From Bryobacterales bacterium (GTDB lineage Bacteria > Acidobacteriota > Terriglobia > Bryobacterales > Bryobacteraceae): 64,000 bases of DNA. The position numbers and the translations under genes were made by a program. The stretch's first letter is position 1. Every line of letters starts with the position of its first letter. Below are positions 8,842-13,431 of the stretch, one piece after another. Where the stretch lies: assembly GCA_016789745.1 (NCBI GenBank), contig JAEUQF010000461.1, forward strand, positions 1-64,000. The letters run 5' to 3'. The notes below the pieces were generated by a model. It did not search any database and was not told where the DNA came from. It worked only from the letters and a program-made list of their open reading frames with translations.

Positions 8842-9119
8842 ATGGGCTCGAATGGGATGAAGCGAACAAGGCCGCCGCGAACTTCCGAAAACATGGCGTC
8901 CGGATGCCCGAGGCGATCCCGGTGTTTGACGATCCGTACGCCTTGACGATCACCGATGATGAAGCCGATCCGGACGAACAAAGATTCGTCACCATGGGCA
9001 TCGGTGCAGTGGGGCGGCTGTTGGTAGTCGTTTACTCCTGGCGCGGTGAGAACATCCGCATCATTTCCGCGCGTCTGGCCGAATCCCATGAAGTCGAAGA
9101 ATATGAGGCGCAGCGATGA
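8842..9119 (+). pseudogene. brnT: BrnT toxin gene, start region frameshifted
   Basis: The reading frame LEWDEANKAAANFRKHGVR, PEAIPVFDDPYA, VVYSWRGENIRIISARLA is a typical BrnT ribonuclease toxin, including the FRKHG motif. No start codon exists in that frame: a TGA at 8835 is followed by AAG CAT GGG CTC GAA TGG. An ATG at 8842 lies one base out of frame, exactly where the start should be (ATG-GG-CTC-GAA), so one base appears lost from codon 2. The first in-frame ATG, at 8904, would drop the first beta strand and the KHG segment. The gene overlaps brnA by four bases. Either the toxin is inactivated or the indel is a sequencing error. Confidence 0.7.
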
Positions 9120-9385
9120 AACACAACTACGATTTCAGCAAAGGTAAGCGAGGCCGGGTTCTTCAACCCGAACCCGAAATTGAGGGCAAGGTTCGCATCA
9201 CGATCCGGTTGGATCAGGACGTTGTGGATCGCTTTTTGCAGCTGGCCGAAGCTTCTGGCGGAACCACGGGCTATCAGACGCTGATCAATGCAGCCCTGCG
9301 GGAATATCTGGACGGAAGGGCTCCGCGCTTTGAAGAAACCCTCAGAAGGATTATCCGTGAAGAACTGAAGTCCAACGCCGCCTGA
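9116..9385 (+). CDS. brnA: BrnA-family antitoxin
   Basis: An 89-residue protein with MKHNYDFSKGKRGRVLQPEP at the start and a ribbon-helix-helix-like C-terminal part: KVRITIRLDQDVVDRFLQLA, then TGYQTLINAALREYL. BrnA antitoxins bind BrnT and repress the shared promoter. It is coupled to brnT by an ATGA overlap and appears intact. Confidence 0.85.
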   Translation: MKHNYDFSKGKRGRVLQPEPEIEGKVRITIRLDQDVVDRFLQLAEASGGTTGYQTLINAALREYLDGRAPRFEETLRRIIREELKSNAA

Positions 9386-9689
9386 TTGGGCCGGCTTTGA
9401 TTGGCTGTTCGCATCACCACATACTCCAACAGTAACGACAACTGTCCTTTCCGCTTCCTCCCGCACGATGCGTGACTCGGGCAACTGACGGACTGCCGGA
9501 GTTTACCGGCCGGAGGAGGCCCTTCGCTGCCCAGATTGCCTTATGGTCAACTCGCAGCGGCAGGCACGTTCTCGCTAGGTTCGTGGTTTGATAAAGGATT
9601 AAGGACCACAACAGGTGGCAAAGGGGCTGATTTTGCAGCGGCGGCGGGTTTGTGCACGGTGTGCACGCCGTTAAGACGGATGCCGACTT
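9386..9689. other. Intergenic with a short direct repeat
   Basis: About 300 bases without a supported gene. TGTGCAC occurs twice close together (9651-9657 and 9660-9666), about 25 bases before the start at 9690. It might be an operator for the broken downstream gene, but the evidence is only position and repetition. Confidence 0.35.
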
Positions 9690-10250
9690 ATGACTAAGGC
9701 GAGCAGCCCATCATCGACAGGGCCCTCCGGCTCCCATTTCGAGGGGCAGGTGGGTGCGTCCTATTTGCTTTCGATGCTGGTGGGTGCCAACCCCCGTGGG
9801 CTGCCGGGAACGACCATCGACAAGATTGCGCTGCAGCGGGCGCCGGAAGGCAGTCCGCTCGACGACGTGATTGTTTTCGCCCACGATGCCCAGGGCAATC
9901 CGGCCAAGCTGGAGATACAGGTCAAGAAAGGCTTGACCTTCGCGCCGGGTGATAAGGTCTTTCGCGAAGTCGTGGGGCAGATCGTAAGAGCATCGCGCAA
10001 TGCCGACTTCAAGACCATCCGCTACGAACTCGGAATCGCAATATCGCGCACCTCCCACACTATCGACGGTCCGTACCAGACCGTATAGACTTGGGCTCGG
10101 CAGATCGGTGATGCCGCGACGTTCGTCAACCGCATTGACCGCCCGGCTCCGGCAATCCCTCGATGCGCAATTTTGTGGAGACCTTCAGGGCGCACATGAA
10201 GGATGAAGGCGCTTCTCACGATGATGAGGCCGTTTGGCAGATCCTTCGCC
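9690..10250 (+). pseudogene. Broken nuclease-domain gene (defence-type protein remnant)
   Basis: The N-terminal 132 residues (SGSHFEGQVGASYLLSML, RGLPGTTIDKIALQRA, PLDDVIVFAHDAQGNP, AKLEIQVKKGLTFAPGD) match, from memory, the start of long multi-domain proteins. Their first domain looks like a PD-(D/E)xK nuclease of the Mrr or DUF4297/Cap4 kind (Asp58-Asp59, then Gln77-x-Lys79). A TAG at 10086 stops the frame, yet the same frame continues with TWARQIGDAATFVNRIDRP. After a frame change near 10148 it goes on as MRNFVETFRAHMKDEGASHD and DEAVWQILRR. It ends at about 10250, inside a palindromic repeat. Everything after this domain is lost. The defence role is inferred. Confidence 0.55.
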
Positions 10251-10270
10251 GAAGCCTTGGCGAAGGTGGA
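10243..10270. repeat. Short palindromic element, copy 1
   Basis: A perfect 8-bp inverted repeat CCTTCGCC (10243-10250) and GGCGAAGG (10259-10266) with loop GAAGCCTT. Its core GAAGCCTTGGCGAAGGTGGA matches copy 2 at 11818 in 18 of 20 bases. It marks the exact end of the broken nuclease-like gene. From memory, similar GCCTTGGCGAAGG palindromes are scattered in many soil bacterial genomes. Confidence 0.7.
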
Positions 10271-10836
10271 AGATCCAGCGCGCCTTCCAGTCCATCGACG
10301 AAACCGGCGCTCTCGTCCTCGGCTACCGCTCGCTCGACGAGCACTCCACCTGGCACCGCAACATGGACCGCCACGTCGCCCGCCTATCCCGCGAGCGGGT
10401 GCGCGCCCTCGCCGCTCTCGAAAACGCCCAGGCCCGCCGTGCCCGCTGCGAAGCCGACGCGGAAACACAAAAATTTCAAGTCGAACCAACGCCCGAACAC
10501 GAAATCAACAACTTACAGGGGACCGAACCGCTATGTCCGGCTGCTTAGGTCCCGCCATGCTTCCCGCGCCGCTTCGTTCCGCGCACGGAAGTCTGTTCTC
10601 CGTTCCTTTGCCGCCCGTCCGAGCACGGGCTCGCGGGCTGCGCCTCTCACGGCCAGCCCGCCGCTTCCACCGGCCCCGGCCGCAACGCCCGGGCTGCGTC
10701 CCGCGACAAGGCGCCCGCCCCTAACGCGGAGGTCGAAGCCCTCCGCCGGGAACTCGCCGACAACGACAACTTCATCGCCAGCCTCCTCGCCAGGCTCCGC
10801 GACTTTCCGATGCCGCCGCTGCCATCTCGGAAATGA
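10271..10836 (+). pseudogene. Remnants of one or two small helical proteins upstream of the terminase-like gene
   Basis: From the palindrome onward one frame reads IQRAFQSIDETGALVLGYRS, LDEHSTWHRNMDRHVARLSR and on to a stop at 10546. It resembles the C-terminal helical part of the small protein family seen at 17026 and 37979, without its N-terminal motif. After that stop the same frame has a second plausible piece, NAEVEALRRELADNDNFIAS then LLARLRDFP, ending near 10836 and without a start codon. No function is known. Confidence 0.35.
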
Positions 10837-10884
10837 TCAAGCGCTCCGCCGCTCATCCCAAGAACCATCGGCCGGACGGCACTT

Positions 10885-12244
10885 ATGACTAAGGCCGACC
10901 TCCGCAACTACATCATTGACCCGGTCGCCTTCACCCGCGACCTCCTCGGCCTCCAGCCCGACCCGCTCCAGGCCGAAGTCCTCAACTCCCATGCCCGCCG
11001 CGGCATCCTCTGTTGCACCCGTCAGTGGGGTAACATCGCGGCCGCCAAGGCCGTGCACCAAGCCTTCCTCCACCCACGCAACACCATCCGTGTCTCTGGC
11101 CCGTGCGAACGTCAGTCCGCCTTGCTCGTCCGCAAGTGCGCCGACATGCTCCTCACTCTAGGTCTGCCCAAACGCGGCGACGGCCACAACCGCATCTCGC
11201 TCCAACTCCCCAACGGCTCCCGCATCATCGGCCTGCCGCACACCGAATCCAACATCCGCGGCTTCTCCGCGCCTTCCCTCATCCTCATCGATGAGGCCGC
11301 CGTCGTCCATGACAGCATCTACCATGCCCTCGTGCCCATGCAGGCCACCAACGACGGAGCCCTCTGGCTCCTCTCCACTCCCCGCGAAAAACGCGGCTTC
11401 TTCTACAACGAGTGGATTGCCTCGGACACCGATTGGCACAAGATCCGCGCCACCGCGCTCGATTGCCCGCGCATCTCGCCGGCCTGGCTCGAACGCCGCG
11501 CCCGCCGCCTCCCCAAGGCCGCCTTCGAACAGGAATTCCTCTGCGTCTTCCGCTCCTCCCAGCTCTCGCTGTTCCAGGACGAAGACCTCCAGGCCGCCCT
11601 CGCGCCGCCGCCCACACTCGACCGCCCCGTGCGCGTCTACCTCGGCCTCGACCTCGGCCAGCGCCACGACCACTCCGCCCTCGCGGTGCTCTACCTGCAG
11701 CAGTACTACACGGGCCGCATCGACCCGGGCACCCGTGTGCGCGAAGTCCGCCACATCCTCCAACTCAAAACCATCAAGCAGATCCCGCTGGAGACGCCGT
11801 ACCCCGGCTTGTCCGCCGTAGCCTTGGCGAAGGCGGAACGTAGCCCAAATCGTCCGCCACCAGCTCCAGCACTTCGAGATCGAAGGCAAAGCCACGGTCA
11901 TCATCGACGCCGGAGGCCCCGGCCTCCCCTTCATCGACTTCCTGACCGCGCTCCCGCTCCGTGCCAACTTGATCAAACTCAACATCACCGGCACCGGAGC
12001 CCCGCACCTCACCAAAGGCATCTATCAGGTCACCCGAGCCCAACTTCTCACCAAGCTGAAGCTACTCCTTGAAAACCGCACCCTCCACATCCCGGACGAC
12101 GACCTCCTCCTCACCGAGCTAAGAGGCATCCAGTCCAGCTTCCAATCCGAAGCCGACCACGACGACCTGGTCATGGCCCTCAGCCTCGCCGCATGGGAAG
12201 CCGCCAAAAACTGGCAAGCGGTGCTCACCCCGAAAACCGCCTGA
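10885..12244 (+). pseudogene. Terminase large subunit-like gene interrupted by a palindromic element
   Basis: Homologue of the phage terminase large subunit (Terminase_6 type). Residues 28-37 carry the adenine-binding-like QAEVLNSHAR. The Walker A position reads CTRQWGNIAAAK (44-55), where relatives have QWGKST, so the essential Lys-Ser/Thr is missing. Walker B is SLILIDEA (131-138). The RNase H-like nuclease begins YLGLDLGQRHDHSALA. After LETPYP (about 11805) a 26-bp palindrome shifts the frame and the annotated frame runs into nonsense to a stop at 12072. The true continuation, AQIVRHQLQHFEIEGK through DHDDLVMALSLAAWEAA, is in another frame to 12244. No other phage structural genes are nearby. 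Inactive on two counts. Confidence 0.8.
11812..11837. repeat. Short palindromic element, copy 2, inserted in the terminase-like gene
   Basis: The element has nested inverted repeats: TCCGCC (11812-11817) with GGCGGA (11832-11837), and GCCTT with AAGGC around GGCG. It shares the core of the copy at 10243. Text before it (LETPYP) and after it (AQIVRHQ) is good terminase sequence in two different frames, so the element plus a few flanking bases was inserted and caused the frameshift. Confidence 0.75.
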
Positions 12245-12260
12245 AACTCTCGGTTCGTTT

Positions 12261-12288
12261 TCTCTGCGCTCTCTGCGGCTCTGCGCGC
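12261..12288 (+). repeat. Dispersed 28-bp intergenic element, copy 1
   Basis: The stretch TCTCTGCGCTCTCTGCGGCT plus CTGCGCGC lies between the terminase remnant and the Rid gene. A second copy at 35729-35756 differs at only three of 28 positions (three T/C changes). Both copies are outside intact coding regions and on the same strand. Confidence 0.65.
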
Positions 12289-12312
12289 GAAGAAATGGAA
12301 ACAACCGCGATA

Positions 12313-13431
12313 ATGACAAACATGCTTCCCCTAACCCTAACCACCCTCGCCCTCCTCCTATCCCTCACCCCAGCCCAAGCCGAAAAGAAAGCCATCCGCC
12401 CCCCCTCCGGCCCTTCCTCCGGCCCCTACAGCGCCGGCATCCTCGCCGGCGATTTCCTCTACGTCTCCGGCCACGTCGGCCCGGAGCCCACCGGCGGCTT
12501 CGCCCCGGGCGACGTCAAAACCCAGACCCGCCGCTCCCTCGACCTCGTCGGCAAGGTCCTCCGCGAGGCCGGCCTCGACTTCTCCCACGTGGTCTCCGCC
12601 ACCCTCTACCTCACCGACATCCGTACCCTCGACGCCGCCGACGCCGCATGGCGCGAAGTCTTCCCCGGCCCCGTCTACCCCGCCCGCATCGACATCGAGT
12701 CCCCCCTCCTCATCCCCGAAGCCCTCTCCGAAGTCAGCGTCATCGCCGTCCGCGCCCCTAATCCCGCCCAGGCCATCCGCGTCATCAACCCAACCGGCTG
12801 GACCGCCCCCAAACGCCCCATCAGCCACGCCATCCTCGCCGCCAATACCCTCTTCTTCTCCACCCTCCGCCCCGTCGACCCCACCACCGGAACCCTCGCC
12901 GGCACCACCCTCGCCGACCAGACCGCCCAGATCGTCCGCAACCAGCAGGCTCTCCTCCAAACTGCCGGCCTCGCCCCCAATGACCTCGCCGCCGTCCGCA
13001 TCTTCACCTCCGACCCGCGCCTCCCCATCCGCTATCCCGGTCCCCCTTCCCTCGCCCGCTCCACCGCCGTCGCCGGCCCCCTCGAACTCGGCCACCTCCT
13101 CCACGTCCAGGCCGTCGCCCACGCCCCCAACCGCAATGCCCCCGTCTATGTCCCCGGTATGGCCGGCCAGGGCGCCACCATCGCCGACCAGACACGCGAC
13201 GCCCTCCAACGCCTCGACGCCGCCTTCCGCCGCCGCGGCTGCTCCCTCGCCGACAGCATCGAAGCCGTCGTCTGGCTCCGCGACCCCCGCGATGCCGCCG
13301 CTATGAACGCCGTCTACCGCGACATCGTCAAACCCAACCCCGCCGCCCGCGCCACCGTCCGCCTTTCCCCCATCGACCTCGACAGCCGTATCACCATCAA
13401 CATGACCGCACACTGCACCCCGCCCCGCTAA
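12313..13431 (+). CDS. Exported multi-domain Rid (YjgF/UK114) family protein
   Basis: A 372-residue protein with a signal peptide (MTNMLPLTLTTLALLLSLTP, then AQA) followed by Rid/YjgF-like units. Unit 1 (about 30-145) is canonical: GPYSAGILAGDFLYVSGHVG, LREAGLDFSHVVSATLYLTD, then PARIDIES with the Arg of the Rid active site. Unit 2 (about 155-265) has ISHAILAANTLFFSTLRPVD. Unit 3 (about 270-365) has GATIADQTRDALQRLDAAF, SIEAVVWLRD and PAARATVRL. Rid proteins hydrolyse reactive imines in the cytoplasm; an exported multi-copy form must act elsewhere and its substrate is unknown. ATG 12295 is an alternative start, but 12313 gives the better signal peptide. Codon use is strikingly C-ending. Confidence 0.8.
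   Translation: MTNMLPLTLTTLALLLSLTPAQAEKKAIRPPSGPSSGPYSAGILAGDFLYVSGHVGPEPTGGFAPGDVKTQTRRSLDLVGKVLREAGLDFSHVVSATLYLTDIRTLDAADAAWREVFPGPVYPARIDIESPLLIPEALSEVSVIAVRAPNPAQAIRVINPTGWTAPKRPISHAILAANTLFFSTLRPVDPTTGTLAGTTLADQTAQIVRNQQALLQTAGLAPNDLAAVRIFTSDPRLPIRYPGPPSLARSTAVAGPLELGHLLHVQAVAHAPNRNAPVYVPGMAGQGATIADQTRDALQRLDAAFRRRGCSLADSIEAVVWLRDPRDAAAMNAVYRDIVKPNPAARATVRLSPIDLDSRITINMTAHCTPPR

Follow-up and report, generated by a model that had tools for sequence, protein, structure and literature searches.

The window, i.e. the whole 64,000-nt stretch of DNA that was analysed (positions 1 to 64,000 of contig JAEUQF010000461.1, assembly GCA_016789745.1, from a member of the Bryobacterales), contains a 26-nt hairpin twice on the forward strand, at 10245-10270 and 11812-11837. 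The extended core reads TCCGCC-GWA-GCCTTGGC-GAA-GGYGGA, and the copy at 10245-10270 has one mismatch to it. Its part GWAGCCTTGGCGAAGGYGGA matches at 10251-10270 and 11818-11837 (both +), and these remain the only two places in the whole window if up to three mismatches are allowed, compared to 0.02 places expected from 100 shuffles. The full unit has a length of 30 nt and consists of a 5' tag, C(T/C)TG, followed by the hairpin. The two copies lie among the following features:

9690..10250, + strand: N-terminus of a large nuclease/defence-like protein, truncated and frame-broken, ending at copy 1
10245..10270, + strand: element copy 1, hairpin part, TTCGCC-GAA-GCCTTGGC-GAA-GGTGGA
10271..10548, + strand: remnant of the gene located upstream of the terminase-like gene in paralogous units (..SIDETGALVLGYRSLDEHS..)
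10885..11801, + strand: terminase-like large subunit, N-terminal part (Terminase_6N; phrog_7579)
11802..11807, + strand: CCCCGG, in place of TCAAG in empty paralogues (alignment with C253, C382 and C143)
11808..11837, + strand: element copy 2, complete 30-nt unit, with the tag CTTG at 11808-11811 and the hairpin TCCGCC-GTA-GCCTTGGC-GAA-GGCGGA at 11812-11837
11838..12244, + strand: terminase-like gene, C-terminal part, in another frame

Copy 1 is without its own 5' tag and first bases, and the sequence CTTCGCCG of the nuclease gene is found there instead. The frames of 9690-10250 match the N-terminus of a Rhizobium plasmid-borne protein (1475 of its residues used) up to ..VWQILRR and stop matching at the element, and the sequence to the right of copy 1 is homologous to a separate unit, which is found on contigs C382, C253, C308 and C143. 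Since the left flank in the window differs while the normal left side survives in C382, copy 1 is read as a rearrangement joint at a pre-existing copy, i.e. a later rearrangement had its joint within an element that was already in place. The nuclease/defence-like protein showed weak PADLOC matches to PDC-M54A, and its plasmid relative a weak match to Avs4. A BrnT/BrnA type II toxin-antitoxin pair is located directly upstream (window 8904-9385), and the DNA of window 9600-12300 had no match in phage records.

Copy 2 has a predicted DNA fold of -7.8 kcal/mol (z -2.65). Its site reads CCGTATCAAGACGTAG in C253 and CCGTA-CCCCGG-[30 nt]-ACGTAG in the window, a net gain of 31 nt, and the 3' half of the terminase-like gene is out of frame because the altered target (CCCCGG for TCAAG) carries one extra nucleotide. 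Judged from this alignment, copy 2 was inserted into a terminase-like gene that is decaying, and a small change of the target would have followed or accompanied the entry of the 30-nt unit.

The original prediction had placed two matching palindromic elements at gene breaks, and both are indeed present there as the sole pair in the window at up to three mismatches. It had also described copy 1 as the end of the broken nuclease-like gene and its junction with other sequence, which agrees with the point where the nuclease homology stops and with the paralogous-unit remnant on the right side. Its suggestion that both copies are insertions or recombination points can now be divided, copy 2 being the insertion and copy 1 a rearrangement joint that did not arise by insertion into the nuclease gene. 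Copy 2 does split the terminase-like gene, the element being absent at the respective codon in the uninterrupted homologues on C253, C382 and C143; the proposed frame shift is real, but the 30-nt unit by itself is in frame.

The genome of the window (10.06 Mb, 499 contigs, 98.9% complete) contains the element at nine places with up to two mismatches, namely on C8 (two), C382 (three), C143, C447, C23 and C493, so it is not absent elsewhere in the genome; a reversed control pattern matched nowhere. All except those on C23 and C493, i.e. seven of the nine, are located in or beside members of the terminase-like family. The 3' copy on C382 is a clean 30-nt insert, which is in frame and adds ten residues (GCATG^GGAAGCC in the window, GCATG[CCTG+26 nt]GGAGGC in C382). 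It is the only clean insert in this genome, the other copies being accompanied by target changes of 5 to about 75 nt: the middle copy on C382, which is common to the more distant C143, stands for about 45 nt of C308 sequence, and the first copy, whose right flank is shared with copy 1 of the window, stands for about 75 nt. A remnant on C335 agrees with the C382 3' copy in its right flank and is unrelated to it on the left. In addition, a second sub-family was seen on C237, C375, C418 and C493, with the form CCCGCC..GGAGGG after GAGCTTGCCTTG or similar, which possibly represents the element inside another repeat.

The terminase-like units are themselves multicopy in this genome, with 17 matches on 12 contigs and many broken members (window 10271-12244; C253, C382, C143, C308, C347, C428, C50, C446, C21, C447, C443), and they occur in 44 of 121 genomes searched, the own genome included. 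We considered whether the element is a standard part of these units and rejected this, as none of 29 loci of relatives (one per genome) holds it at up to four mismatches. This particular terminase-like protein was encoded in none of the 181 foreign element loci searched.

The predicted hairpin comprises a 6-bp stem, an internal loop GNA/GNA, a 3-bp GCY/RGC stem and a TT loop. Its conservation was analysed in 255 distinct copies with zero to five mismatches, representing 81 distinct 26-mers; the reversed pattern matched once. Among all 325 position pairs, the strongest mutual information was obtained for 1-26, 12-15 and 4-23, all of which are predicted base pairs, and none of 2000 shuffles reached any of these three values. 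Compensated variants include CCCGCC..GGCGGG, ACCGCC..GGCGGT, TCCTCC..GGAGGA and GCTTTAGC. Seven of the 17 distinct 26-mers with exactly two changes alter both sides of one predicted pair, compared to 0.5 expected, and six of these seven keep the pairing. The positions G7, A9, G18 and A20 are kept in 247-253 of the 255 copies, though they are unable to form Watson-Crick pairs; a folded single strand is therefore favoured over a duplex binding site. T occurs at position 23 in 50 of the 255 copies, A at position 4 in only two, and this tolerance of a G-T pair points to the CTTG strand as the one that is likely to fold. Predicted fold energies are modest (DNA z from -0.9 to -2.7 for the consensus strands and copy 2, and -3.8 for the changed copy 1; RNA z from -1.6 to -2.2). 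From the covariation pattern we conclude that the element is conserved as a folded strand, and in this it corresponds to a REP, an imperfect palindrome of 20-40 nt with a conserved fold. An inner GTAG was considered as a REP tag and discarded, because its second base, at position 8, is A or T about equally often (130 and 113 of the 255 copies). Searches against Rfam at E up to 1 returned no match overlapping the element and one chance match elsewhere in 9500-12500 (E 0.18); at gathering scores, five element loci yielded only a cobalamin riboswitch, located away from the element.

In 105 of 118 copies a G directly precedes the hairpin. Among the 151 copies with distinct flanks, the tetranucleotide 5' of the hairpin was CTTG 54 times and CCTG 21 times (75/151). 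Exact lengths of the unit were obtained from empty and filled sites. In G125, a closed genome of one contig from the phylum of the window, the palindrome CCGTCGACCT-(loop)-AGGTCGACGG was found at 97 sites when loops of 2-32 nt were allowed; among the 52 sites listed, 34 had a 2-nt loop and 18 a loop of 32 nt, with none between (counted by eye). This palindrome is GTAG-tagged on the other strand, since CTAC often comes next after it. The filled copies in G125 may stem from one insertion that was later amplified together with its REP. Similarly, the Bradyrhizobium repeat CATTGCGAGCGMAGCGA^AGCAATCC, which fits the CGTC type, carries an insert of 0 nt in four and of 30 nt in ten cases and of no other length under a strict pattern, while a looser pattern gave seven empty sites, 13 with 30 nt and four of other lengths. 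Empty and filled sites of a GTAG-type palindrome, a CGTC-type palindrome and a paralogue within the own genome thus all differ by exactly 30 nt, without deletion or clear target duplication. Where the target is GA^AG, the ends of the insert are uncertain by 2 nt, so that a 28-nt unit which duplicates 2 nt would fit such sites equally well; at C382 the two readings are not equivalent.

The element was also found within itself. Locus L086 (Tantalella) contains it inserted at GA^AG several levels deep, and single self-nestings occur in L269, L279 and L291, the sites being GA^AG or GT^AG overall. As a statistic, self-nesting is not significant (3/151 compared to 0.87, maximum 4, on re-pairing of flanks), so the observation rests on the individual cases. 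A position at the tip of a longer palindrome (score of at least 7) was seen for 12 of 91 copies with distinct flanks, compared to 0.6 after re-pairing of the flanks; the flanks of the other 79 scored below 7 and are not palindromic. At five loci (L050, L157, L171, L178, L266) the left half of the element (CTTGTCMGCCGA or similar) is located directly 5' of a full copy, with no matching right half, and these half-copies do not fit a simple insertion.

The element is widely distributed. In the phylum of the window, Acidobacteriota, the element was found in 32 of 396 genomes if two mismatches were allowed; a reversed pattern matched none, and the highest copy numbers were found in G125 (111), G355 (52), G192 (47) and G285 (35); at up to three mismatches, G125 contains 145 copies. 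In the Patescibacteria, the phylum of G396, 41 of 286 genomes match (reversed control 0). A scan of genome contigs with the exact 26-mer returned at least 116 stretches, and the record names of the matches listed cover about ten phyla, among them Pseudomonadota, Acidobacteria, Verrucomicrobia with Kiritimatiellae and Lentisphaeria, Planctomycetota, Elusimicrobia, Omnitrophota, several Patescibacteria lineages, Bdellovibrio, Bacteroidota (Niastella, Phaeodactylibacter), Marinimicrobia and Zipacnadia. Many of the carriers are metagenome bins; isolates include about two dozen Bradyrhizobium records, one of them the complete chromosome of Bradyrhizobium barranii NZ_CP096255.1, and Niastella soli MAH-29. 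The 28 named carriers that were counted contain between 1 and 132 copies each if three mismatches are allowed (maximum in G423; control 0). Many dispersed copies per genome, as expected of a REP, are seen in G125 (145) and G423 (132), with few (nine) in the genome of the window. Eight IMG/VR contigs hold the element, and a 32-mer had no match at E 0.01 in the phage and plasmid record sets. Since the scans used exact or near-exact patterns, these numbers refer to close copies, and diverged ones were missed.

Long open frames contain fewer copies than random placement would give: 59 of 125 copies lie in them, compared to 98 of 124 points chosen at random in these loci. The unit corresponds to ten codons and is open in five or six frames. 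Pfam was run on ten of the 59 frame-spanning copies, and domains of one protein flank or surround the insert in ValRS-like, LeuRS-like, ArgRS and PheT tRNA synthetases as well as in an MgsA-type ATPase, an LptC/LptA protein, a glycosyltransferase and a DsbH-like protein; in the primase DnaG the insert directly follows the Toprim domain, and in a Tad protein it is located 5' of the matched domain. The element peptides include SAEALAKA(E), SAFAKASAD and VRRSLGEGG. PDB relatives aligned for three insert-bearing proteins showed the domain context and are too divergent to prove a ten-residue gap. In the ArgRS of a Levybacteria genome (L178:133-2025, -), the element peptide is accompanied by another stretch like it, TFAKASAGK, which looks as though the gene had been entered twice by a variant element. 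Rickettsia palindromic elements (RPE) are in-frame inserts in protein genes and are longer than 30 nt. The present element resembles RPE as a palindromic insert translated within conserved proteins, and differs from them by its length of 30 nt and by not being limited to one genus.

Concerning a mobilising enzyme, Y1_Tnp (PF01797) was detected, for the phylum of the window, in 28 of the 32 carriers as against 230 of the 364 non-carriers (Fisher p 0.006). The respective numbers for the phylum of G396 were 26 of 41 and 111 of 245 (p 0.04), and 26 of the 28 named carriers have it as well; the excess in carriers may reflect genome size or general repeat load. No Y1 was detected in four of the 32 and 15 of the 41 carriers, and G668, which has the most copies in the scan of the G396 phylum (12), is among them. 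None of 30 Y1 loci from nine carrier genomes had an element copy within 1.5 kb if three mismatches were allowed (two had one at four mismatches), none of 20 further Y1 loci had one nearby at up to three, and only one of 231 element loci contained a Y1 gene, 1.8 kb away. A Y1 gene as partner in cis was consequently rejected for the Y1 loci examined, none of which is flanked by the element as in a REPtron mobilised by a RAYT. A strand bias by half-genome was not seen in G125 (17/42 and 17/41). The small genomes of the Patescibacteria G396-G401 (0.6-1.0 Mb; L294-L309) have up to 11 Y1 transposase genes each, mostly with private palindromes on either side (e.g. L298, L299, L300), and these resemble the TIRtrons in the accessible text of PMC3733652.

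The suggested search for a REP-associated tyrosine transposase gave one weak Y1_Tnp match in the own genome, and the examined Y1 loci had no close element copy beside them. The initial description as a small mobile palindrome of REP/MITE type stands in its REP-like part, the 5' tetranucleotide with an imperfect palindrome. The MITE-like part does not, as target duplication is not clear and neither a transposon with such ends nor an autonomous partner was found among the sequences searched.

We favour, with a probability of roughly 0.6, a dispersed non-coding REP-like element of 30 nt, which would be recognised as a folded single strand and enter DNA as a 30-nt unit, preferably at the tips of hairpins. 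Insertion would favour another hairpin, at its tip or at the edge of its loop, the site often being ..GA^AG.., with GCGAAGC or CCTGAAGG as candidate hairpin-loop targets. Insertion would proceed through single-stranded DNA and might be carried out by an HUH-type transposase (Y1, RAYT/IS200-like) acting in trans. A more far-reaching version, to which we give somewhat less than even odds, would make the element a third tag class (CTTG) of bacterial hairpin elements, nearly identical over about ten phyla, which inserts itself as a 30-nt single strand into hairpin loops, those of REPs included, by means of a new enzyme, and which enters essential genes as a peptide insert.

The strongest competitor, unlikely in our view, is template switching during replication, in which a polymerase stalled at a hairpin would copy the element hairpin from elsewhere and return, with no dedicated enzyme. 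The palindromic sites, the target losses at three copies of the own genome, the left-arm half-copies next to full copies and the carriers without Y1 genes would all be accounted for in this way; however, random switching should not yield units of exactly 30 nt with an identical 5' tag at unrelated sites of unrelated hosts, and the same sequence recurs in distant phyla. It is less probable still that the element is a passenger, i.e. a loop variant of REP or CGTC palindromes that is spread by their machinery alone and has no mobility of its own. Many copies in G125 and Bradyrhizobium indeed reside within GTAG- or CGTC-type palindromes, but the flanks are non-palindromic in most loci (79/91 below score 7), and copies stand alone in genes and within the element itself.

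A functional binding site or RNA signal under selection, such as a terminator, an mRNA stabiliser or a protein site, in place of a mobile element would agree with the lower number of copies in long open frames (59/125 compared to 98/124) and with the G-T pairing tolerated on one strand at positions 4-23. We consider it very improbable, because the G/A positions, which are conserved though non-complementary, speak against a duplex site, the occurrence is patchy with 364 of 396 genomes being without the element, and Rfam gave no match over it at E up to 1. Finally, an assembly or library artefact or contamination between bins might be suspected where carriers are metagenome bins and copies are often near contig ends. 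It is hardly credible as an explanation, given the isolates that carry the element, including the complete chromosome NZ_CP096255.1, the 145 copies on the one contig of G125 and the pairs of empty and filled sites within one genome.

Returning to the REP-like reading, in the accessible text of Di Nocera et al. (2013; PMC3733652) the REPs that carry a GTAG or CGTC tag are imperfect palindromes of 20-40 nt with a fixed unpaired tetranucleotide at one end, which are dispersed, mostly intergenic, sometimes in genes and in some cases within other palindromes. According to the same text, GTAG repeats are divided into 24 families on the basis of their stems and loops, and a number of these families are common to distant species, CGTC repeats have no partner transposase and are mostly dimers, and RPE-4 and RPE-6 are equated with CGTC repeats. 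As compared with this description, our element is likewise a tagged short palindrome, dispersed and mostly between genes, with a partner transposase not found. It differs in its C(T/C)TG tag, the fixed internal GNA/GNA and the near-same sequence in about ten phyla, in occurring mostly as single units and in its insertion, with exactly 30 nt, into the loops of GTAG and CGTC palindromes themselves. The element thus behaves like a REP, but the tetranucleotide at its foot is that of neither described class (GTAG, CGTC). The loops of Bradyrhizobium GTAG-14 repeats have palindromic interiors of up to 27 bp (PMC3733652), and these might include the element. The repeats Br-REP1 and Br-REP2 of Bradyrhizobium japonicum, as given in the accessible part of PMC5082802, are palindromic and from the same genus, but have a consensus unrelated to the element. 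With the Y1 single-strand transposition of RAYT and IS200-IS605 elements, as far as covered by the accessible text of PMC6006769, it shares the hairpin with a 5' tetranucleotide and the lack of clear target duplication; unlike these, it flanks no Y1 gene found, some of its carriers are without Y1, and no half-genome strand bias was seen in G125. Literature searches, whose coverage mostly excludes subscription journals, returned no description of the element, and a search of 5.39 million papers with sequence terms returned only an unrelated paper on a human protein.

The smallest bacterial repeats are usually lineage-bound and are thought to be moved by a cognate RAYT enzyme. Here, a near-single sequence with a different tag extends from Bradyrhizobium to Patescibacteria with genomes of 0.6 Mb, and exact empty and filled sites occur in the same genome. 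The movement of repeats without a cognate transposase and the use of hairpin loops as insertion targets could now be tested with short oligonucleotides. In its carriers, the element also accounts for short foreign-looking peptides in conserved proteins (SAEALAKAE, SAFAKASAD) as well as for some pseudogene breaks and contig ends.
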